DNA of 64,000 nucleotides. Source: an uncultured Mesonia sp. GTDB taxonomy: Bacteria; Bacteroidota; Bacteroidia; Flavobacteriales; Flavobacteriaceae. Under the pieces are notes generated by a model. It had not been told where the DNA came from and ran no database searches. It worked only from the letters and a program-made list of their open reading frames with translations. Position 1 is the first letter of the stretch. Every line of letters begins with the position of its first letter. The stretch covers positions 124,001 to 188,000 of the forward strand of contig CANMOY010000001.1 of NCBI GenBank assembly GCA_947499595.1. Direction: 5' to 3'. Positions 1,849 through 58,211 of this stretch are shown in pieces. The position numbers and the translations under genes were made by a program.

Positions 1849-3270
1849 TTATAGGTTTAAAAATTCTAAAACATAATTTTCAAAATCCGGATCACTTATC
1901 TGAATGTCACCTCTTACAATTTCACCCTTTTTATTCACAAATAGTATTTTATTAAGGTAGTTATTGTATAAGCTTTTATCGCACTTTAGTTCTTTGATTT
2001 GGTATTCAAAATCTTGATTGTAATCAAAGTTACTCAAGGTTTTTTTCCAAATTTTTGGCTCAGTTGCGTCTATGTTAACTCCTATAAAATCAATTTCAGG
2101 ATACTTATTTCTTAGCTCATTTATTCTATGATGTAATTCCTTATGATGGTTTGAAGAATAAACGGACCAGTAAAATATAATACTATTTCTTTTTACAATT
2201 TCTTGGTAGCTTTTGTTTTGATTTTTAGGCGTAACAAGTTCTTTGTCTTTTATGTTTTCACCGATGAAAAAAGAGCGATGAACCTTACCTAGTGCCTTGA
2301 GCTGATTGATTAAATCATCAGAAAATCCTAAGGTTTCAACCAAGCTAAGCGTGCCACTTATTTGCTTGTCATTTTCAGAAAATATAATCTGGTTTTTCGC
2401 AAATTTTTTAATAAAGTGTTTCCTTAAATTGTCATTCTTAAAAAGCGAATCGGCAAGCTTAAGTCTTCTCTCTAAATTTTCTACATTACTTAAACTAAAA
2501 CAAGGTCTCCCTAAGTTGTGCGTAATACAATATTCTAAAGATCTGTTTTTTAAATAATTATCAAGAAATCGTTGGTAAATGTAATGACTCGTTAAATCTT
2601 CATCATTAAAGTTCACCTGTTTTCTGTAATCAAAGAAGTCTTGAGGTATTTTTTTTCTAAATTCTGTGAAGTATTTATTTATTAAAAATGCGTAGCGTTC
2701 ACGCAAATCATAATATTCATAATCAATTCCTTTTTTTGCAATATTGAGAAAAGCATCAGAGAACTCATGAACCTCATTTAGCGTATTCAATTTAGCTAAG
2801 CGTTCTTGGTGTATAGAATCTGTTTTTTTTAAAAATTCTTGCGGACTAATTTTATAGTAAGATAAAATAAGATCATTATTTTGTTCATTTTGCAAGAACA
2901 TTTCCATCAATAAATTATTCTTTTCAGCTCCTTTGCCCGAGTACATCAAAGACTCATCAAACTCAAGGGTATTTAATCTAAGTAAGATGCTATCATTTTC
3001 TTCAACAAATAAAATTTGACTTTCAGGCTGATGCCGAATGGTAAATAGGCCTAAATCATTATCCTTAAAAACATACTTAAAGCGATTTCTCTTATCTAGA
3101 AAGATTGTATCAATAAGCTCTCCTTCGCGCTCAAGGGTCAAAAAATCTTGATTCGGGTTTACAATTTCACCACCCAAAAAACTACCCGTAATCTCATTTG
3201 TTTTTGTATTGTCTTGACAACTAGCAACTAATATAGCCACTAACAAAATGCGATAAAAATAATGCCCCAT
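1849..3270 (-). CDS. Thioredoxin-fold lipoprotein lacking the CxxC motif
   Basis: The 473-residue protein has a lipoprotein signal ending at a Cys near residue 18 (LVASC), an N-terminal DUF4369-like beta region, a long charged helical middle and a C-terminal thioredoxin/TlpA-like fold (about 350-473). The position where TlpA has WCxxC reads W368-S-V-Y-S-S-N-H375, so both redox cysteines are absent. It is therefore unlikely to be a disulfide oxidoreductase and may have a binding or scaffold role in the envelope. A candidate TATATTTG -7 box lies 23 bases upstream of the start. It converges with nrdA. The fold call is by motif and architecture only. Confidence 0.75.
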   Translation of the reverse strand: MGHYFYRILLVAILVASCQDNTKTNEITGSFLGGEIVNPNQDFLTLEREGELIDTIFLDKRNRFKYVFKDNDLGLFTIRHQPESQILFVEENDSILLRLNTLEFDESLMYSGKGAEKNNLLMEMFLQNEQNNDLILSYYKISPQEFLKKTDSIHQERLAKLNTLNEVHEFSDAFLNIAKKGIDYEYYDLRERYAFLINKYFTEFRKKIPQDFFDYRKQVNFNDEDLTSHYIYQRFLDNYLKNRSLEYCITHNLGRPCFSLSNVENLERRLKLADSLFKNDNLRKHFIKKFAKNQIIFSENDKQISGTLSLVETLGFSDDLINQLKALGKVHRSFFIGENIKDKELVTPKNQNKSYQEIVKRNSIIFYWSVYSSNHHKELHHRINELRNKYPEIDFIGVNIDATEPKIWKKTLSNFDYNQDFEYQIKELKCDKSLYNNYLNKILFVNKKGEIVRGDIQISDPDFENYVLEFLNL

Positions 3271-3293
3271 AATTTACATACTAACTCAGCCTT

Positions 3294-3301
3294 CAAATAT
3301 A
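3294..3301 (-). promoter_or_regulatory. Candidate -7 box (TAnnTTTG) for the thioredoxin-fold lipoprotein
   Basis: TATATTTG on the minus strand, 23 bases before the start at 3270, matches the Bacteroidota -7 consensus. No clear -33 TTG was identified. Confidence 0.5.
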
Positions 3302-3352
3302 ATGTCTTCGTTAAAAGTGCTTTGTTAAGCTGACGTTAAATACAAAACTTAA

Positions 3353-5032
<1,680 letters not shown>

Positions 5033-5035
5033 ATA

Positions 5036-5136
5036 GGGTGCAACCCGCTGGTAATTAGCTACCAGCGGGTCGGGTCATCCGCTATATCTTTTTGGCAAGA
5101 AAGGCCAAAAAGGATGCCGCTGCTACCCCTTGCACA
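5036..5136 (+). ncRNA. Structured RNA element, Flavo-1-like
   Basis: A closing stem GTGCAA (5038-5043)/TTGCAC (5130-5135) encloses a perfect 10-bp hairpin (5044-5053/5060-5069). It also encloses a second arm with GGGT (5072-5075)/ACCC (5125-5128), ATCC (5077-5080)/GGAT (5112-5115) and CTTTTTGGC (5088-5096)/GCCAAAAAG (5104-5112). The linear motif CGGGTCGGGTCATCCGCTAT and the downstream GGATGCCGCT resemble, from memory, the Bacteroidota Flavo-1 candidate RNA. The function of that class is unknown. A terminator follows immediately. The structure is seen directly; the family name is recall. Confidence 0.6.
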
Positions 5137-5138
5137 AT

Positions 5139-5180
5139 AAAAATCCTTTCTTGTTAAATAAAGAAAGGATTTTTTTATTT
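5139..5180. terminator. Rho-independent terminator
   Basis: Arms AAAAATCCTTTCTT (5139-5152) and its complement (5161-5174) are followed by a T-rich run. It ends transcription from the ABC-F gene and the structured RNA before the transporter gene. Confidence 0.8.
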
Positions 5181-5201
5181 TAGGCAATTCAATTTAGCGC
5201 T

Positions 5202-6518
5202 ATGAAACACTTCCCTAAAGGACATAAAAAATTATTGCGAGCTTGGGCATTTTATGATTGGGCAAACTCTGTTTACAGCTTGGTAATCTCATCGGCCATT
5301 TTCCCTATATTTTATGGGGCCCTTACTTTGGTAAAAGACGAGCAAGGAAACATTCTAAATGATCAAATTGATTTTCTTGGTTTTACTTGGAATAATGATA
5401 CCCTTATAAGCTATGTAACTGCATTAGCTTTTTTAACCATATCCATTTTAAGTCCGTTGCTTAGCGGTATAGCCGATTATCTCGGCAATAAAAAACGTTT
5501 TATGCGTTTTTTTAATTATCTAGGCGCCTTCTCGTGTATTGGCTTGTTTTGGTTTAATCTAGAAATACTATGGTTTGGTTTATTTTGCTATTATTTAGCC
5601 CTAATCGGGTTTTGGGGTAGTATAGTTTTTTACAATTCCTATCTTCCAGATATTGCCTTTCCTGAACAACAAGATCAAGTAAGTGCTAAAGGATATGCCA
5701 TGGGATATATTGGTAGTGTTATTCTCTTAATTATTTGTTTAGTACTCATTATGTTTTATGAATTATGGGGTTTTGAAAGCAAGGATTTTCCTACACGCCT
5801 GTCTTTTATCTTAACTGGTGTCTGGTGGATCGGCTTTAGCCAGTATACCTATTTGTACTTGCCACAAGGCAATAAAAAAGCATACACCCGAAAGAAAGAT
5901 GTTTTTTTAAACGGATTTAGAGAGTTAAAATTAATTGCAATAAAAATTAAACAAAACCTTAGCTTGCGCCTTTATCTCTATGCGTTTTTCCTTTATAGCA
6001 TGGCGGTGCAAACCATTATGTTAATTGCTACTTATTTTGGAATAGAAGAATTAGACTGGGGTGGGCAAGATGCTACCGTAGGACTAATTATTAGCATTTT
6101 ACTTATTCAATTAGTCGCTGTTTTAGGAGCGCTCTTAACCAGTAGGCTTTCCCGCAAATACGGAAATATACAGGTTTTAATGGGTATAAACTTTATTTGG
6201 GTTGCAATATGCGTTTATGCTTATTTTATTAATACACCGCAGCAATTTTACGTTGCCGCTGCATGTGTGGGATTGGTAATGGGGGGTATTCAATCGCTTT
6301 CAAGAAGTACTTATTCTAAATTTATTCCAGAAAAAGCAAAAGATACTGCGTCTTACTTTAGTTTTTATGATGTTTCCGAAAAGATAGGAATTGTTATTGG
6401 TATGCTTTCTTACGGTTTTGTAGCTCAAGTAACCGGTAGCATACGCTCGGCGATATTATTTTTAATTCTATTCTTTATTTTAGGGATAATACTGCTAACA
6501 AGAGTTCCTAGAAAATAA
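5202..6518 (+). CDS. MFS transporter, UMF1/Atg22-like
   Basis: A 438-residue membrane protein with about 12 hydrophobic segments. The N-terminal AWAFYDWANSVYSLVISSAI and the GISDYLGN-type motif in loop 2-3 (here SGIADYLGNKKRFM) are typical of the UMF1/vacuole effluxer Atg22-like branch of the major facilitator superfamily. The C-terminal half has GGIQSLSRSTYSKFIPE, also a family hallmark. The substrate is unknown; in bacteria these are often assumed to be exporters. It is transcribed alone after a strong terminator, with the ATG at 5202. Confidence 0.88.
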   Translation: MKHFPKGHKKLLRAWAFYDWANSVYSLVISSAIFPIFYGALTLVKDEQGNILNDQIDFLGFTWNNDTLISYVTALAFLTISILSPLLSGIADYLGNKKRFMRFFNYLGAFSCIGLFWFNLEILWFGLFCYYLALIGFWGSIVFYNSYLPDIAFPEQQDQVSAKGYAMGYIGSVILLIICLVLIMFYELWGFESKDFPTRLSFILTGVWWIGFSQYTYLYLPQGNKKAYTRKKDVFLNGFRELKLIAIKIKQNLSLRLYLYAFFLYSMAVQTIMLIATYFGIEELDWGGQDATVGLIISILLIQLVAVLGALLTSRLSRKYGNIQVLMGINFIWVAICVYAYFINTPQQFYVAAACVGLVMGGIQSLSRSTYSKFIPEKAKDTASYFSFYDVSEKIGIVIGMLSYGFVAQVTGSIRSAILFLILFFILGIILLTRVPRK

Positions 6519-6540
6519 CAAAATATTAAGAAATTTTATT

Positions 6541-6548
6541 TATGTTTG
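6541..6548 (+). promoter_or_regulatory. Candidate -7 box for the DUF6252-like lipoprotein
   Basis: TATGTTTG lies 22 bases before the ATG at 6571. Confidence 0.5.
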
Positions 6549-6570
6549 TTTTACCATAAAACTCAACTTA

Positions 6571-7164
6571 ATGAAAAAAATAAACCTACTTTTAAAATCT
6601 TTATTTATTGTAACACTTTGTTTAGGTTTTTCTTCTTGTGAAACTGAACCTTTAGAGGGAGAATTCGGTAAATTAAACCCACCAAACAACACTAATTCTG
6701 GAAGCTTTTCAGCAGAGATAGATGGGGTTCCTTATACTGCTGCAGGTGCTAAAGCTTGGAGTATACCTACTCTAACTACGCCTCCGGGTGAAGTCGTAGA
6801 AATAATTGCAAATGATGGACGCATTTCTAATTCGATGACTTTTATGATAGTGGTAGAGGATGTAAATATGGTTCAGTTGAGCTCCTACCCATTAAGTATA
6901 ACTGGTTTAGATAATAATGATTTTTGGGCAACAGGAACAGTTACTTTTACAGAAGATATGCAGAGTTTAGAAACGCCTGTAAGTTGGGCGACAAATGAAA
7001 CTTATGGTGGTACTTTAACCATTACAGAAATTGATAGAACCAATGAGATAATTAAAGGAACTTTTGAATTTGATGCTGAATTAGTATTTGAAGACGATGA
7101 TAGCCCAAAACTAATTAGTGTTACCAAAGGTAAATTCAATATCCCATATGAACAGGGTCAATAA
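6571..7164 (+). CDS. DUF6252-like lipoprotein
   Basis: A 197-residue secreted protein with a lipoprotein signal (LGFSSC, Cys at about 23). The body starts with the FSAEIDGVPYTAAGAKAW segment and has a later GTFEFDAEL strand, a pattern I associate with the DUF6252 beta-sandwich family of flavobacteria. The function is unknown; these are small envelope proteins. A candidate -7 box and a downstream terminator make it a single-gene unit. Confidence 0.7.
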   Translation: MKKINLLLKSLFIVTLCLGFSSCETEPLEGEFGKLNPPNNTNSGSFSAEIDGVPYTAAGAKAWSIPTLTTPPGEVVEIIANDGRISNSMTFMIVVEDVNMVQLSSYPLSITGLDNNDFWATGTVTFTEDMQSLETPVSWATNETYGGTLTITEIDRTNEIIKGTFEFDAELVFEDDDSPKLISVTKGKFNIPYEQGQ

Positions 7165-50746: not shown

Positions 50747-53140
50747 ATGGTAGGTAATTTAAGACAAAAAACAAAAGAGGATTTTCCTTTTTCTATTCAA
50801 GTTGGTTTTAAAAAGGTTATTGATGCGTATAAAAACCGTCTAAAAACTGAGAAAAAGCCTTTGGCTAAAAAGTATTTGAAAGAATTACTTGAATACATTG
50901 AAGATTTCCCTGAGCTTGAGACTGGTATTGACGATCTAGAACGCTTGTCGAAATTCGAGCAGCCTATTATTACCTTGTTAGATGACTTATTTCCAGACCT
51001 TTTAACCGAAAATGAAATTAAAGCCGCTGCGGTGCCTAAAACCGATATCTTTTTAGCTATTTCTTCTCGGTTTGAACGAATATTAAAGGAAGCCGGTAAA
51101 AATTTTGAACTAACCCCCAGAAATTTTGATAAGCAGTTAGATTATGTAAGTGGTTGTGTGCTTATTTTGAACAGTTTCTATAACTATAAAATAGATTTTA
51201 GCCGCCCCATTTATTATGATATTCCGAATAAAGAGGGGATTATAAAAACCTACCGCTTATCTGTAAATGCAGACTTTATTCAGTTTCATAAAACCGATAG
51301 CGCTCCAAAAATTACCGATGCCGATGTAGATGAGTTGTTATTGAACCCAGATGATCTCAAGATTTGGAAAGAAAAATTCCCGCCAAATAGTTATATTTTT
51401 AAGGGTTTTACCTTATTGAATCTTACAGATATAACCATTGATGACGGTATTTCAGATTTGAAATCTGAATTGCTGAATAAGAAATTGCCAGAATCTACAA
51501 TGGCGAGCCTAATAGAGATTTTTAGATCTATTTTTAAAATACCAGATTTACAAATAGGCTTTACTTTATATGACCAAGCAAACAATAAGTTTGTAAAAAT
51601 GAGCCAAGATAAAAGCTCTTATATCAATAGTTTTATTTTAGATCAGGATGATTGTGTCAATTGTCCAAAAGCTTTATGTCAGCAAGGAATAGACCAGTTG
51701 ATAGAAAAAAAAGAAAATTTTGTCATCGCAAATGTTGAGCAATACGCTACCAAAACCCAACATAATTTACTTGCCGAAAATTTACTGGCTAAAGGTATAA
51801 AAAGTAGCATTTTTGCACCTGTAGCACGAGGTAATGACTTAATGGGAGTGCTTGAACTAGGCTCGTTGCGTAAAAATGAGCTAAACCGTATTAATGCCTC
51901 AAAACTAGACGATATACTACCTTATATTGTAATGGCTGTTGAACGGAATAAAGCAGAATTTGAAAATAGGATTAAAGCAGTAATACAATCGGAGTGTACT
52001 AGTATCCACCCAAGTGTTCTTTGGGTATTTGAGCAAGAAGCTGAGCGCTATATTAATGATTTAGAACAAGATGGTATAGCTTCATTCAGAGACATCGGAT
52101 TCAAAGATATTTATCCGTTATACGGACAAATCGATATTGTAGGATCATCTGATGAACGAAATAGAGCTATCCAAAAAGACCTATTGAGTCAATTGCAAAT
52201 CATTACTAAATTGGTAGAAAAAGCTTTTGAAATAGAATCAATACCTATTTATGAGCAAATTATTTTTAGGATTAATGAATTTAAAAAAGAATTAAAAGAA
52301 AACTTAAATGCATCAAGTGAGCAGCGCATTATGAATTTTATTTATGATGAGTTAGATCCTTTGATAGAACACATCTATAACAATGAAAAAAGTTTAAGAT
52401 CAGAAATAGATGTTTATAAAGAAGATTTAAACTCTCAATCTGGGGTTATATATAACCATAGAAAGAATTATGATGATACTGTACAGCGCATTAATCGTAG
52501 CTTATCGCGCTATTTAGACAGGCAACAGCAAGAAGCCCAAAAAATGTATCCTCACTATTTTGAACGTTATAAAACTGATGGTGTAGAGCATAATATGTAC
52601 ATTGGAGCCGCTATGGTAAATAATAGGCCTTTTCATAAAGTTTATCTTTACAATTTGAGGCTTTGGCAGTTACAAACCATGTGCGAGATGGAGAATAAAT
52701 TTTATTCTATTCAAGAAGATTTGCCATTAAAATTAGACGCCGCATCACTCATTCTGGTTTTTAGTTCAACCTTATCGATCAAATACAGAATGGATGAGAA
52801 AAAATTTGATGTTGACGGTACCTACAACGCCAGGTATGAAATAATCAAAAAGCGAATAGATAAAGCATTTATCAAAAACACCGAAGAGCGAATAACACAG
52901 AAGGGTAAAATCGCTATTATTTACTCGCAAAAAACTGATGAGTTAGAGTACCTACGCTATATCAATTATTTACAAAAAAAGGATTATCTAGGCGAAGAAA
53001 TAGAAAAACTAGAGCTTGAAGACGTGCAAGGAGTAATAGGTTTAAAAGCTTTACGCGTTAGAGTTTTGTATCATTTACCAGATGAACCCAACCAAATTAA
53101 GTTCACCTATGAAGATTTGATGAACGAAATAAATCCGTAA
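50747..53140 (+). CDS. Large GAF-domain protein, cytoplasmic
   Basis: A 797-residue protein without signal or transmembrane segments. A GAF-like domain lies at about 255-400 (GFTLYDQANNKFVKM, DDCVNCPKALCQQG, SSIFAPVARGNDLMGVLELG), flanked by long helical regions. The C-DDCVNCPKALC cysteine cluster within it could bind a metal or cofactor, but that is speculation. Proteins of this size and layout are widespread in flavobacteria, with unknown function. It is convergent with the HD-PycTM gene. Confidence 0.8.
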   Translation: MVGNLRQKTKEDFPFSIQVGFKKVIDAYKNRLKTEKKPLAKKYLKELLEYIEDFPELETGIDDLERLSKFEQPIITLLDDLFPDLLTENEIKAAAVPKTDIFLAISSRFERILKEAGKNFELTPRNFDKQLDYVSGCVLILNSFYNYKIDFSRPIYYDIPNKEGIIKTYRLSVNADFIQFHKTDSAPKITDADVDELLLNPDDLKIWKEKFPPNSYIFKGFTLLNLTDITIDDGISDLKSELLNKKLPESTMASLIEIFRSIFKIPDLQIGFTLYDQANNKFVKMSQDKSSYINSFILDQDDCVNCPKALCQQGIDQLIEKKENFVIANVEQYATKTQHNLLAENLLAKGIKSSIFAPVARGNDLMGVLELGSLRKNELNRINASKLDDILPYIVMAVERNKAEFENRIKAVIQSECTSIHPSVLWVFEQEAERYINDLEQDGIASFRDIGFKDIYPLYGQIDIVGSSDERNRAIQKDLLSQLQIITKLVEKAFEIESIPIYEQIIFRINEFKKELKENLNASSEQRIMNFIYDELDPLIEHIYNNEKSLRSEIDVYKEDLNSQSGVIYNHRKNYDDTVQRINRSLSRYLDRQQQEAQKMYPHYFERYKTDGVEHNMYIGAAMVNNRPFHKVYLYNLRLWQLQTMCEMENKFYSIQEDLPLKLDAASLILVFSSTLSIKYRMDEKKFDVDGTYNARYEIIKKRIDKAFIKNTEERITQKGKIAIIYSQKTDELEYLRYINYLQKKDYLGEEIEKLELEDVQGVIGLKALRVRVLYHLPDEPNQIKFTYEDLMNEINP

Positions 53141-53230: not shown

Positions 53231-54415
53231 TTAAATTGTACTAAAAGCTAAGATAAAGGCTATAACCGATATGATTATACCAGTCATAAATATGGTATAA
53301 GTCCATCGTAATAGTTTATATTTTCTATTTAAAACTATTCCTAAAAGATAGAGATCCTTGGTTAGGGCCTCGTAGATATAATCATTATCTTTTAGAATTT
53401 CGTCAATCGCCCATTTATATTGGTCAAATTGCATTTTATGAAAATTACCGAAAAACAGAATATTTACCTCCCTATTTTTTACTTGCTCTTTAGTGAATTC
53501 TCCTGTACCAACATTGGGCCGAGTAGACATTATTGATAAAATCATGGAAGCGACACTAAAACAAACCAAAACCAAAGTAGGCATCATTAAGTGGCGGTTT
53601 GAAGCTGCATCTAATTTGGGTATAATATTGGCAAGTGCTAATGAAATTATAATAGCATTTACAGAAAGCAAAATGTTAGCTTTGGTGTCTGCAATATCAC
53701 TTAATTTTATATGATTGCGCAAGGCTGTGCGGTATAGGGTTTGAATTCCGCGGTCTGGATTGTTACTTTTGTATTTGGCTTTTAATTTTGCTTTAACTCT
53801 TTCTTTGTCTAATTTCTTTTTAAGCTTTTGCTGACTTTGAAGCAGATCTAATAGATTTTCTTCTTTTTGTGCTTTCCAGTTTTTAACGGCATATGGGGTA
53901 TAAAACTGGTGTTTCATCGTAAAAAGCTCGATGTTTTCTGCAATCCATTCTGTTGGCGAACAGTTCTTGATATTTAATAATTTGAGCTCTTGCCTTAATA
54001 ACTCACTTATATCTTCAAAATAGTCTTTTGCTAGATGAGAATAATCGGCATCTTTTATAATTTTATCTCCTAGTTTTTTAGGTTCAAGATGACTTTTTGT
54101 TTGTTCTATATAATGACAAACGCTTTCTATTAAGTCTGGATCTGCCTTTACCTTACTTAAAAACTCCCGAGCAATTATGATACTTTCATCCTCGTGTTGT
54201 TTGTAAGTCTTGATGTAACCAGTGTCATGTAGCAAAGCAGCTAAGATAAGAGGCTGATGCTCTTTAACATGAATTTCAGAATTTTCAATTAATTCTTTGG
54301 TACTTTTAACAACGCGCTTTGTATGATTGAAATTGTGATAAACAAATGTATTAGGTAATTTTGTAGCGAATAATTCAAAAACAAAAGTTTCTGTTTGTGC
54401 TATTAAATCTTTCAT
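53231..54415 (-). CDS. HD-domain protein fused to a Pycsar-effector-type membrane domain
   Basis: A 394-residue protein. The N-terminal HD phosphohydrolase domain (about 20-190) has all metal positions: H31, H63-D64 in ALLHDTGYIK, and D122 in IIKDADYSHLA. A charged coiled-coil linker follows (about 190-225, KKLKKKLDKERVKAKLKAK). The C-terminal 170 residues match the PycTM/DUF5706 module: KLSDIADTKANILLSVNAII, then membrane segments near 250-270, 280-300 and 370-392. In Pycsar defence such modules are cNMP-activated membrane disruptors, but no cyclase is nearby. It is divergent from the phosphoesterase-barrel gene, 55 bases away. The family call is strong; the biological role is open. Confidence 0.88.
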   Translation of the reverse strand: MKDLIAQTETFVFELFATKLPNTFVYHNFNHTKRVVKSTKELIENSEIHVKEHQPLILAALLHDTGYIKTYKQHEDESIIIAREFLSKVKADPDLIESVCHYIEQTKSHLEPKKLGDKIIKDADYSHLAKDYFEDISELLRQELKLLNIKNCSPTEWIAENIELFTMKHQFYTPYAVKNWKAQKEENLLDLLQSQQKLKKKLDKERVKAKLKAKYKSNNPDRGIQTLYRTALRNHIKLSDIADTKANILLSVNAIIISLALANIIPKLDAASNRHLMMPTLVLVCFSVASMILSIMSTRPNVGTGEFTKEQVKNREVNILFFGNFHKMQFDQYKWAIDEILKDNDYIYEALTKDLYLLGIVLNRKYKLLRWTYTIFMTGIIISVIAFILAFSTI

Positions 54416-54470: not shown

Positions 54471-57400
54471 ATGAATAAAAATAACATACTTCTAACAATT
54501 TCCGTATTATTTTTTTTGGGTTGTGCCTCCTATGAACCAAAATATAGAAACCAACAAGAATTTTTAGATACCAGCTATCCGGCTCATAAAGAACTGGCGC
54601 ATCGCTTTTTACTTGTAGGCGATGCCGGCTATGCCAAAGAAAATGGGAAATCTGATGGTATGAAAGTTTTTGACCAAGCCTTAGAAGCATTTAATGTGAA
54701 AAATTCACATACTTTATTTTTAGGGGATAACATATACCCAGACGGAATGCCAGAAGTAGGAGATCCAGGTAGAGCTGAGGCTGAATATCGTATGGGAGTT
54801 CAAATTGAGGCGAGTACACCAAGTCTTGGTGAGGTAGTATTCATACCAGGAAATCACGATTGGTATCATAACAGAATTCATAGCCTAAAAGAACAGCGTG
54901 ATTTTATTGCCAAACATATGCCCAATAAAAAAGATACTTGGGCACCCAAAACAGGTTGTGGTTTTGAGGTGCGTGATATTTCAGATGATGTGGCCTTAAT
55001 TATTTTAGATACGCAATGGTATCTAGAAAACTGGGATAAAAGCCCTACTATTAATGATAATTGCCCAGAAATTAAAACACGAGAGGCCTTCTTGCAAGAA
55101 TTTGAATCAGAATTAAAGAAAAATCAAAATAAGAATATTGTTGTGGCTACACACCACCCGCTTTATACTAATGGTGTACATGGTGGTACCTATCCAATAG
55201 AAAGACACCTTTATCCTTCACAAAAGACCATTCCATTACCCATTCTAGGTTCTTTAGCTGCATTGATACGCACAACTGGCGGAGTAAGTATTCAGGACGC
55301 TCAAAACGAGCGTTATAAATCTATGGTTGATCGTTTGTCTACTATTGCTCACGAATACGAGAATGTAATTTTTGTTTCGGGGCATGAACACAATTTGCAG
55401 TACAATATTTTTGAGGGAGTACATCAAATAGTTTCTGGATCTGGTTCTAAATTATCTTATGCCAACTTAAGAAATACAGGGCAATTTGCTTATCCTGGTC
55501 AAGGTATGGCGGTATACGATATTTTTAAAGACGGCTCTACCTTTGTTCGATTTTATAATTTAAAGGATGGAGAGTTAAATGAAATTTATCGCAAAGAAGT
55601 TTTTCCAGCTAGAAAAAGTCCAGATCGGTTTATAAAGGATTTTTCAAAATATGAACAAAAATTCACCAAAGCTTCAATCTATAAAAACGCAGACCAAGAA
55701 AAAGAAAAAAACAAATTATTCACCAGTATTTGGGGGAATCATTACAGAGATCTCTATTACCAGCAGATTCAAGTGCCAGTTGCTTTTCTAGATACACTCT
55801 ACGGCGGATTAAAAGTTGTTCGTGCAGGAGGTGGTCATCAGACTAAATCTTTGCGATTGGAGGATAAACAAGGAAGGGATTATAATTTACGAGCATTAAA
55901 AAAGAATGCACTTCAATTTTTACAAACGGTCGCCTTTAAGGATAAAAAAATTAAAGATGATTTCAAAAATACTTTAGCTCAGGAAGCTATTGAAGATTTT
56001 TATACGGCTGCACATCCTTATGGATTTCTTGTTGTGCCTACACTGGCTAAAGCTATTGGTGTAGCTCATACCAATCCTAAATTGTTTTACATTCCAAAAC
56101 AAGCCACTTTAGGGAACTATAATGACGAGTATGGCGATGAAATATATATGCTTGTTGAAAGACCTGAAGATGATTGGGTAGGTTCTGGTAAATTCAACAA
56201 TCCGAATAAAGATATTCAAAGCAGTTCAGGTTTATTTGAGCACCTTAGAAGGGATGAAGAGTATAAATTAGACGAGTCTGCTTATATACGCGCCAGATTG
56301 TTTGATATGCTTTTGGGCGATTGGGATAGGCACCAAGATCAATGGAGATGGGGTGAAAATAAAATGCCAAATGGTGATAAAGTTTTTTATCCTATACCAC
56401 GAGATCGCGATCAAGTATTTTCTAATTACGATGGTGCTTTTTTTGCCACGGTTAGAGGAATAGCGGGTTTTGCAAATCAATTTGGGACTTATGAGCCCAT
56501 GATTAAAGATTTAGCTTGGTTTAATTCGGCTGCAGCCGGATTAGACCGTACTTTAATTCAAAATCAAGGAAAAGGAGCTTGGATTCAACAAGCTAAATTT
56601 ATTCAACAAAATTTGAAAGATGAAGACATCGAAATAGCTTTTAAAAGACTTCCTAAAGAAATATATCAACACGAATCAACTAAGTATATACTAGAAACCT
56701 TAAAGAAAAGAAGAGATAATATAGCCGAAATTGCCATTAATTATTATGCTTTTATAGCCAAACTGGCAATCGTGACCGCCACAGATAAAGATGATTTTAT
56801 TGATATTACTAGGCTAAAGAATGGAGATACGCGTATTGTTGTTTACAGAAACATAAAGGGAAAAAGAAAGTATTTGGTTAGCGATAAGGTTTATAGAAAA
56901 AGCGAGACAAAAGAAATATGGGTTTATGGTTTAGATGATGATGACGAGTTTTTAGTTGAAGGGGAAGACAAAAAACCAATCCGTCTAAAAATCATAGGTG
57001 GCCAAAATAACGATATTTATAAAGTATATAATAAACACAATTTAAAGATTTATGATCATAAGTCTTTACCTAATACTTTTGAGCAAGGTGAAAAAGCCAA
57101 AATTAGATTAACCGATAGTTATGAAATAAATACTTTTGATAAGGATAAACGTATATTTAATGCGTCTACAGTATTACCTGCCTTGGGCTATAATCCAGAT
57201 GACGGGGTAATTGTTGGCCTACAAGGTACTTATACAACAAATAAGTTTAAACGCAACCCTTATTCTTCTCAATATAAATTAAAAGCTGGATATTATTTTG
57301 CTACTCAAGGGTTTGATTTGGAAGCAAGAGGTGAGTGGGCAAATATTTTTGGTAACTATAACTTGTGGACTAAAGGCCGAATTACCAGTCATAATTTTGC

Positions 57401-58211
57401 CGTAAATTATTTTGGTTTAGGAAATAATACGCAAAACCAAGAGTACACACAAGATAAAAGTTTTGACTTTAATAGAGTTAAGTTAAGTCGGGGAGAAGTA
57501 GAGGTCGGTGCTATAAATAGAACTCCTTTCGGCAGTATCTTTGAAGGTAGTTTAGGATTTGAAACCGTGGAATTAGATGATTCACCTAATCGTTATATTT
57601 CTGAAATAGCTTCACTAAGCGATCCTAATTTATTTGAACGGAAATACTTTGCAAAATTTGATGCCAGTTATACCTATGAGAGTTATGATAATTATTTAAA
57701 CCCATCGCGAGGAATGAAGTTTAAATTAAATCTAGGTGCTACCCTAAATACCAAAAATACAGAAAGGTATTTTGGGAGAATAGAACCCTCCATTTTATTT
57801 TATAATGCTATTTCTACCAATAGAAAACTGGTATTAAAAACTCATTTAAATTCAAAAGTCCTTCTTGGTGATGATTTTGAATTTTATCAAGGAGCGCAAT
57901 TAGGTGGCGACAATGGATTAAGAGGGTATAGAAATGAACGGTTTACAGGAGAATCTTTTTTAGTTACCGGTGCAGATTTGCGGTATAGTTTTAATCAATT
58001 TACAACACGATTTTTGCCATTTCAAATTGGAGTGTTCGGTGGTGCCGATTTAGGTAGAGTATGGTTAGATGGAGAAGATAGTAATAAGTGGCATCCAGAT
58101 TACGGTGGTGGTGTTTTTATAACCTCAGCCAACGCTGTAAATGGAACTTTAAATCTATTTCACGGAGATGAAGGTTGGCGCTTTAGTTTTGGTTTTGGAG
58201 TTAGTTTCTAA
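54471..58211 (+). CDS. Metallophosphoesterase / kinase-like / Omp85-type barrel fusion lipoprotein
   Basis: A 1246-residue protein with lipobox FFLGC18. Domain 1 (about 40-330) is a calcineurin-like phosphoesterase: GD51AG, LGD86N, GNH129D, ATHHP and SGHEHN. The middle (about 440-760) is unassigned but carries kinase-like motifs. One is a glycine-rich AGGGHQTKSLRL at 452-463 followed by an LRALKK strand (473-478). Another is a catalytic-loop-like GD617WD619RHQDQW (616-625), and the last is PIPRD645RD647 in a metal-loop position, as in CotH/FAM20-type atypical kinases. The C-terminus (about 860-1246) is an Omp85/BamA-like barrel with GLRGY at 1149-1153. It is probably outer-membrane bound. Domains 1 and 3 are confident; the kinase resemblance is my inference. 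Confidence 0.8.
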   Translation: MNKNNILLTISVLFFLGCASYEPKYRNQQEFLDTSYPAHKELAHRFLLVGDAGYAKENGKSDGMKVFDQALEAFNVKNSHTLFLGDNIYPDGMPEVGDPGRAEAEYRMGVQIEASTPSLGEVVFIPGNHDWYHNRIHSLKEQRDFIAKHMPNKKDTWAPKTGCGFEVRDISDDVALIILDTQWYLENWDKSPTINDNCPEIKTREAFLQEFESELKKNQNKNIVVATHHPLYTNGVHGGTYPIERHLYPSQKTIPLPILGSLAALIRTTGGVSIQDAQNERYKSMVDRLSTIAHEYENVIFVSGHEHNLQYNIFEGVHQIVSGSGSKLSYANLRNTGQFAYPGQGMAVYDIFKDGSTFVRFYNLKDGELNEIYRKEVFPARKSPDRFIKDFSKYEQKFTKASIYKNADQEKEKNKLFTSIWGNHYRDLYYQQIQVPVAFLDTLYGGLKVVRAGGGHQTKSLRLEDKQGRDYNLRALKKNALQFLQTVAFKDKKIKDDFKNTLAQEAIEDFYTAAHPYGFLVVPTLAKAIGVAHTNPKLFYIPKQATLGNYNDEYGDEIYMLVERPEDDWVGSGKFNNPNKDIQSSSGLFEHLRRDEEYKLDESAYIRARLFDMLLGDWDRHQDQWRWGENKMPNGDKVFYPIPRDRDQVFSNYDGAFFATVRGIAGFANQFGTYEPMIKDLAWFNSAAAGLDRTLIQNQGKGAWIQQAKFIQQNLKDEDIEIAFKRLPKEIYQHESTKYILETLKKRRDNIAEIAINYYAFIAKLAIVTATDKDDFIDITRLKNGDTRIVVYRNIKGKRKYLVSDKVYRKSETKEIWVYGLDDDDEFLVEGEDKKPIRLKIIGGQNNDIYKVYNKHNLKIYDHKSLPNTFEQGEKAKIRLTDSYEINTFDKDKRIFNASTVLPALGYNPDDGVIVGLQGTYTTNKFKRNPYSSQYKLKAGYYFATQGFDLEARGEWANIFGNYNLWTKGRITSHNFAVNYFGLGNNTQNQEYTQDKSFDFNRVKLSRGEVEVGAINRTPFGSIFEGSLGFETVELDDSPNRYISEIASLSDPNLFERKYFAKFDASYTYESYDNYLNPSRGMKFKLNLGATLNTKNTERYFGRIEPSILFYNAISTNRKLVLKTHLNSKVLLGDDFEFYQGAQLGGDNGLRGYRNERFTGESFLVTGADLRYSFNQFTTRFLPFQIGVFGGADLGRVWLDGEDSNKWHPDYGGGVFITSANAVNGTLNLFHGDEGWRFSFGFGVSF

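Follow-up and report, generated by a model that had tools for sequence, protein, structure and literature searches.

A predicted kinase-like domain between the phosphatase domain and the Omp85 barrel of a Mesonia lipoprotein

Omp85 subfamilies with non-POTRA architectures have been described, and one of them, named 'Metallo', combines a PF00149 domain, which the authors call a metalloprotease, with an Omp85 barrel (Heinz and Lithgow 2014; PMC4104836). An enzyme domain N-terminal to an Omp85 barrel is also found in PlpD, a patatin-Omp85 protein whose enzyme domain is reported to be located solely in the periplasm (PMC11116518). Here we analyze a gene of comparable layout in a stretch of 64,000 nucleotides from an uncultured Mesonia sp., a marine member of the Bacteroidota (assembly GCA_947499595.1, contig CANMOY010000001.1, positions 124,001 to 188,000), which we call the window and to which the coordinates below refer. 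The gene is an open reading frame of 1246 amino acids (aa) with an ATG start at 54471-58211 on the plus strand. Like the 'Metallo' proteins, its product carries PF00149 followed by an Omp85 barrel without POTRA, and the 'Metallo' proteins are very likely the same proteins as the family described here. PlpD, in contrast, has a patatin-type domain and neither kinase nor phosphatase.

Computation shows that the chain consists of a phosphatase domain of the purple acid phosphatase (PAP) type, a domain with the protein kinase-like (PKL) fold of the PI4KII/CotH/CtkA/HipA branch that keeps the Lys and both Asp residues, a beta domain, and a 16-strand Omp85 barrel. The gene and its domains are as follows.

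54471..58211 (+): whole gene, with lipoprotein signal, PAP-like phosphatase, kinase-like domain, beta domain and Omp85 barrel (open reading frame, Pfam, AlphaFold2 model)
54471..54524 (+): signal peptide with the lipobox FLGC (aa 15-18) and no acidic run after the Cys (sequence)
54603..55613 (+): purple-acid-phosphatase-type metallophosphoesterase domain, aa ~45-381 (Pfam PF00149, phmmer, VIA)
55692..56741 (+): kinase-like (PKL-fold) domain, aa ~408-757, with limits from stand-alone homologs of ~425 aa (AlphaFold2 model, VIA/Foldseek, hhalign to CotH)
56766..57155 (+): small all-beta domain, aa ~766-895, between the kinase-like domain and the barrel (DSSP strands of the models)
57156..58208 (+): 16-strand Omp85 barrel, aa 896-1246 (PF01103, model strands, VIA)

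In the window protein, Pfam identifies Metallophos at 45-244 (E 7e-10) and Omp85 at 974-1244 (E 1e-8), and no family between these two matches. NCBIfam has no match to the middle domain and reports only a sub-threshold Omp85 match (76 bits, against a cut-off of 200); searched with 68 diverse family members, it gives no match at all. A preliminary description of the window, made from the letters alone, had proposed a kinase-like segment between phosphatase and barrel, and the motifs it quoted are in place: GDAG (50-53), LGDN (84-87), GNHD (127-130), HEHN (305-308) and GLRGY (1149-1153) for the phosphatase and barrel, and AGGGHQTKSLRL (452-463), LRALKK (473-478), GDWDRHQDQW (616-625) and PIPRDRD (641-647) for the middle part. 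The kinase-like segment is now supported by fold matches, a profile alignment to CotH, and residue conservation.

The fold of the middle domain was examined in an AlphaFold2 model of aa 385-905 calculated with 79 sequences (predicted local distance difference test, pLDDT, 87.8; predicted template modeling score, pTM, 0.90). VIA-align, run against a Foldseek shortlist, listed 50 PDB rows, all of which are kinases (PI4KII, CotH, CtkA, PIKK/PI3K and HipA). The highest scores were those of PI4KII-beta (Z 15.2 over 263 residues, root-mean-square deviation 5.2) and CotH (Z 14.8 over 253 residues, 4.2), followed by CtkA (13.6), mTOR (12.6), ATM (12.4) and HipA (11.3), and the best matches span model residues of about 49-378, i.e., aa 433-762. 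Foldseek ranked HipA first (E 1.4e-5), followed by amicoumacin kinase, PI4KII, Rio2, ADCK3 and FAM20C; four matches, three HipA chains and one amicoumacin kinase, lie under E 0.001. The FAM20 match (DrFam20C1) has an E of 2.7e-3 and a probability of 0.97, and FAM20 is absent among the 50 listed VIA rows. No match to a non-kinase fold, which was also sought, occurs among these rows or among the Foldseek matches below 0.001, and a non-kinase fold was rejected since the listed VIA rows are all kinases. Two other candidates, an adenine phosphoribosyltransferase-like match of the single sequence (E 0.089) and a 40S eS7 match of the family profile A1 (E 0.13), are insignificant and conflict with the model.

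In the full-length model (aa 47-1246; pLDDT 88.5, pTM 0.85), the elements of the middle domain follow one another in a way that fits a kinase. The glycine-rich loop lies between the strands 448-453 and 458-464, the strand 470-478 ends at K478, and the helix 502-513 holds D509; the strand 557-563 comes next as a hinge, followed by the helix 602-615, the loop 616-624, two strands, and D645 and D647. A glycine-rich loop, a beta-3 Lys, a catalytic-loop Asp and a DFG-type Asp are thus found in this order within a two-lobed predicted fold, which is what defines the PKL fold.

Profile comparisons give sequence evidence that is independent of the models. When a profile of 173 kinase-like domains was compared by hhalign with one of 25 CotH proteins, the score was 44.7 (P 5e-5, probability 67%), while 30 column-shuffled profiles reached at most 22.2 and the phosphatase, barrel and beta profiles at most 22.7. 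As a yardstick, CotH and HipA, which we take to be accepted relatives, score 36.8 with each other. A first, smaller profile of the family had scored 38.6 against CotH (probability 28%). We also searched 177,635 PDB sequences with A3, a HMMER profile of 68 diverse kinase-like domains from which five rows with decayed kinase residues were left out; the top match was the Helicobacter kinase CtkA, on LLGNFDRHNGNW (E 0.036). HMMER aligned this segment without gaps with LLGDWDRHQDQW, and D645 falls one residue off the Asp taken as the DFG-type Asp of CtkA.

The relation to each of these kinases has its limits. CotH (PF08757; PDB 5jd9/5jda) combines the fold likeness with a profile alignment that includes both catalytic Asp residues and the following helical part, but it differs from the present domain in residue D+5, which is Gln here, in compartment, and in lacking the extra beta domain, barrel and phosphatase; the window protein, for its part, has no Pfam CotH match. 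PI4KII-alpha/beta (e.g., 4wtv), which is membrane-associated, is the best VIA match, but identity is 7-10% in the listed rows and the likeness is one of fold; the PI4K family PF00454 was found in none of the 61 Bacteroidota genomes searched. CtkA and HipA, the HipA_C-type kinases, share the fold and, for CtkA, the loop alignment, whereas HipA has a weak profile score and these kinases are cytosolic, as opposed to the probable export of the present protein to the envelope.

For the conservation analysis, a genome scan provided the first family set, in which the best 80 of 265 relatives were kept (79 loci, for the most part full length and from Flavobacteriaceae); the first count used the window gene and 78 of the 79 loci, L034 having been dropped for an ambiguous residue. 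In this count K478, D617, W618, D619, R620, D623, W625, W627, R646 and D647 are invariant (79/79), and D645 is kept in 77/79. The larger set contains 171 rows (173 minus two duplicates), partly chosen for diversity and hence not a random draw. K478, D619 and D645 occur together in 157 of these rows and in 60 of the 72 clusters at 60% identity, with sampled pairs down to 23% identical. The conserved sites are listed below.

55824..55850 (+): glycine-rich loop GGGHQTKS between the first two N-lobe strands (G453, G454 and G455 in 165, 166 and 160 of 173 rows)
55902..55904 (+): K478, a VAIK-type Lys with which the strand aa 470-478 ends (167/171)
55995..55997 (+): D509, in the candidate alpha-C helix, aa 502-513 (165/171)
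56316..56345 (+): catalytic-loop segment GDWDRHQDQW, with D619 aligned with the CotH Asp assigned as D228 (D619 in 162/171)
56391..56411 (+): PIPRDRD, DFG-equivalent, with D645 aligned with the CotH Asp assigned as D251 and D647 also conserved (D645 in 163/171)

A chance match to kinase motifs is rejected by this conservation across the family, and the four Asp residues singled out in the preliminary description, D617, D619, D645 and D647, are indeed retained, D617 in 169 and D647 in 164 of the 171 rows (Q624 in 163). As candidates for the catalytic pair, only D619 and D645 hold in the CotH alignment; D617 and D647 are conserved neighbors. This alignment pairs D619 with the Asp of the CotH N-x-D motif and D645 with the Asp of W-D-x-D/N. 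In Bacillus cereus CotH (5jd9), the Asp residues of NFDG and PWDYD are 23 residues apart, which is also the D228-D251 spacing of B. subtilis CotH, where substitutions of D228 and D251 are reported to be inactivating (PMC7821199). By motif and spacing, we assign D228 and D251 as the probable CotH counterparts of D619 and D645. Note that CotH proteins vary by three residues in loop length; because of this difference, when HMMER aligns L131, a Bacteroidota CotH, with the B. cereus protein, the N-x-D Asp residues come to lie three positions apart, so these were equated by motif, while the W-D Asp residues align directly.

The N-terminal domain is a PAP-type phosphatase. In a phmmer search it matched human PAP with an E of 4e-6, and VIA superposed it on pig PAP (1ute) with a Z of 27.4 over 261 aligned residues at 20% identity; this fold rules against the metalloprotease reading of the PF00149 domain, which was rejected. 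It resembles mammalian PAP (TRAP/ACP5) also in the motifs GDxG, GDxxY, GNHD and GHxH, but differs in being fused to a kinase-like domain and a barrel. The full set of PAP metal-site motifs, GDxG, GDxxY, GNH, H and GHxH, including the Tyr, is present in the window protein; the definition of these motifs and the role of D51 as a metal ligand we take from what is generally known of the PAP family. The phosphatase site is intact at six ligands in 125 of 133 rows, and its motifs are conserved as follows.

54618..54629 (+): GDAG, with metal ligand D51 (D kept in 129/133 rows)
54723..54737 (+): GDNIY, a GDxxY motif, with metal ligands D86 (129/133) and Y89 (128/133)
54849..54860 (+): GNHD, with N128 (126/133) and H129 (125/133)
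55152..55157 (+): HH, with H228 (133/133)
55380..55391 (+): GHEH, with H305 (132/133) and H307 (127/133)

The C-terminal barrel comprises 16 strands of at least 10 residues (aa 896-1244; three strands of 3 residues are excluded from the count), and VIA relates it to TamA (Z 25.7) and BamA (Z 25.5), so that both the strand number and the fold are those of an Omp85 protein. The Pfam scan of the window protein found no POTRA domain. The beta domain in front of the barrel (56766-57155, +) contains GLDDDDEF and GGQNNDIY stretches, which seem to us reminiscent of RTX-type GGxGxDxx turns. A simple lipobox pattern occurs in 68 of 79 rows, and in these the number of acidic residues at positions +2 to +6 after the Cys is zero in 56 and one in 12. 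We assume that the lipoprotein export signal (LES) takes the form of acidic residues right after the lipidated Cys. Since none of the 68 rows has more than one such residue, we argue that the protein lacks this Bacteroidota surface signal, which is mentioned in PMC12045153. Because the number of strands is even, the soluble part and the C-terminus should lie on the same side of the membrane. In Omp85 proteins the soluble side is the periplasm. From the even-stranded barrel with N-terminal soluble domains and the lipid anchor without an acidic export signal, we infer that both enzyme domains are probably periplasmic, by analogy with Omp85 proteins in general; the enzyme domain of PlpD is reported to lie there.

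The nearest genome found is that of Mesonia sp. HuA40 (L001), whose protein is 97% identical, and the middle domain is encoded in 112 of 296 genomes (62 of 140 genera) drawn evenly from the phylum. The loci kept in the first scan are titled Bacteroidota except for one metagenome-assembled genome labeled Rickettsiaceae, which has a close homolog (45% identity) on one contig (L039), perhaps mis-binned Bacteroidota DNA. Among 72,556 plasmid records, relatives occur in five, all from Bacteroidota; four are annotated as 'hypothetical protein', and in the fifth no gene is listed at the position. A Pfam scan of the 79 members of A1 gave scattered matches to 43 families, of which the commonest is EnY2 (12 members), and no shared family.

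Modularity was counted in 94 members outside the first alignment, a set in which the window gene is included and one gene appears two times. The full order of phosphatase, kinase-like domain, beta domain and barrel is found in 56 of them, 25 are without the phosphatase, 8 consist of the kinase-like and beta domains, and 5 of the kinase-like domain alone; the beta domain is detected in 89 members, and the barrel is missing in 13. The five stand-alone proteins (L111-L115) have 423-425 aa and an N-terminal hydrophobic segment, and match the profile from position 12-31 to 373-378, which is why the kinase-like domain is limited to aa ~408-757. In a tree of 86 rows thinned from 173, made by a quick method, this group forms one side of a branch with support 100. 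On the same tree the phosphatase label switches 8 times without an inferable direction, and starred branches make 4 of these switches necessary. Tandem genes for the kinase-like and beta domains occur in L117 (three, 2129-7148) and L116 (two, 2436-5775), and one gene in each has Ser at the D619 position and is, from its sequence, a candidate pseudokinase. A protein of 598 aa (L126 1517-3310, minus strand), in which profile A1 matched at 369-459 alone, the beta domain, apparently has no kinase-like domain.

Paralogs in which the phosphatase site is damaged are informative. The genome of the window has a second copy (G000:C1:279230-280729; L129 3208-6789, minus strand), 41% identical in the kinase-like and 29% in the phosphatase domain, in which H129 and five residues of the metal site are lost (N51, N86, K128, N129, N305, T307). 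L221 and L222 have losses at the same positions; in L223 and L224, D51, H129 and H307 are gone, but D86, N128 and H305 remain. As K478, D509, D617, D619, Q624, D645 and D647 are retained in all five, selection appears to act on the kinase-like residues independently of the phosphatase. L225, with no other copy seen in its genome, has both sites intact. Among the 173 rows, the trio of K478, D619 and D645 is changed in 2 with an intact phosphatase, in 2 where both sites are changed, and in 10 of the 38 that are phosphatase-free. Taken together, the relatives that stand alone, lack the phosphatase or carry a damaged one suggest that selection acts on the kinase-like module in its own right.

The neighborhood of the gene is a recurrent context separate from the lipoprotein itself. 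A divergent gene 55 bp away (53231..54415, minus strand) encodes an HD-domain protein whose C-terminal part is a PycTM (Pycsar effector) membrane domain (E 3e-36), and a relative of it adjoins the gene in 66 of 79 loci. Upstream, at 50747-53140 (+), lies a gene for a 797-aa protein with a weak GAF_2 match (E 0.0013, below the cut-off), found in 58 of 79 loci. PADLOC reported a match to PDC-M03A (E 1e-4), without any stretch that passes alone.

Overall, we consider it probable, with some reserve, that the protein is an outer-membrane enzyme with two predicted catalytic domains on the periplasmic face, a PAP-type phosphatase and a PKL-fold kinase-like domain. A number of observations weigh against this reading. 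In the structure comparison, the first rows of Foldseek have low TM-scores when taken by query length (0.14-0.31). In the profile comparisons, hhalign relates the domain to HipA weakly (25.6, P 0.018, with shuffles up to 22.0), the aligned stretch being the same catalytic loop, and the CtkA match is insignificant alone and came from a profile that excluded the five decayed rows. Pfam finds no kinase family in the window protein, where CotH is unmatched at E <= 1 and HipA_C (PF07804) has no match; in 68 relatives it finds CotH in 2 (best E 0.021) and HipA_C in 2 (best 0.19), and since DUF1598 appears alongside in 3 (best E 0.0014), single-sequence Pfam matches cannot settle the family. Within the family, K478, D619 or D645 is lost in 14 of 171 rows, residue D+5 is Gln in 163/171 where CotH, HipT and CtkA have Asn, and the candidate alpha-C position has Asp instead of Glu, both departures from known kinases. 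To our knowledge, the periplasm is generally held to lack ATP, so the phosphate donor is the main difficulty.

These last two substitutions make a pseudokinase the chief rival: the domain would keep the fold, perhaps bind a nucleotide or other ligand, and serve the phosphatase or barrel as sensor or regulator without any transfer. The supposed absence of ATP agrees with this, as does the replacement of D619 in 9 of 171 rows, including Ser in two proteins with only the kinase-like and beta domains and Gly in two of full architecture. We nevertheless regard it as unlikely, for the Lys and both Asp residues persist together at low sequence identity and in paralogs with a lost or damaged phosphatase site, and a mere binder would have no obvious need for both Asp residues. 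An active phosphotransferase might also have as its substrate not a protein but a lipid or a small molecule, for example a headgroup in the inner leaflet of the outer membrane. The top fold match, PI4KII, is a membrane lipid kinase, tied with CotH, and the present domain is membrane-tethered; the protein kinases CotH, CtkA and HipA, however, lie within a few Z units, and fold does not fix substrate, so we regard this as a possibility worth keeping in view. A further explanation, the conservative one that Heinz and Lithgow give for Omp85 subfamilies of unknown role, is that the protein is an assembly factor in which the soluble domains take the place of POTRA as docking modules in the periplasm, catalysis being secondary or missing. 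Its barrel does match TamA and BamA at a Z of about 25 and conserves the GLRGY stretch, but POTRA is unseen by Pfam, the kinase-like module is barrel-free in 13 of 94 members, the phosphatase sites are mostly intact, and PlpD, another enzyme fusion to Omp85, has its enzyme domain in the periplasm; this explanation seems to us improbable.

If the middle domain is an active kinase, the glycine-rich loop and K478 would bind a nucleotide or other phosphodonor between the lobes, and phosphate (or AMP) would be transferred with D619 as the base and D645 and Q624 at the metal. The acceptor, at a guess, could be a protein or lipid of the outer membrane or periplasm, and the PAP-type domain might, again as a guess, reverse the mark or consume a related phospho-compound; the barrel may serve as an anchor rather than an insertase. 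The widest form of this proposal, a phylum-wide Bacteroidota family of periplasmic kinases anchored in the outer membrane that would form, with the fused phosphatase, a writer-eraser pair acting on outer-membrane proteins or lipids and using a donor available outside the cytoplasm, we put forward tentatively and as doubtful.

With regard to novelty, the preliminary description knew of no earlier account of an outer-membrane-tethered phosphatase and kinase pair in one chain. For the phosphatase-Omp85 combination this does not apply, as it was published in 2014. For the kinase-like part it stands: no description of a kinase-like domain in an Omp85 protein was found in the literature searched, with subscription papers and preprints outside its scope, and the word 'kinase' is absent from the main text of Heinz and Lithgow (2014; PMC4104836) and from that of the 2025 Flavobacterium johnsoniae TamL and BAM papers. 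The 'noNterm' barrels of Heinz and Lithgow, as described in that main text, could, but need not, cover the phosphatase-free relatives. Judging from sequences and models, we rate the kinase-like family as probably new, and the Omp85 architecture in which it occurs as known.

The finding offers a testable identity for that part of the Omp85 'Metallo' subfamily which lacks annotation. The paralogs with just one of the two sites surviving are natural, if partial, controls. It poses the question of what role and what donor a kinase would have on the periplasmic side of the outer membrane, and it hints that such Bacteroidota could add and remove phosphate at the inner face of that membrane.

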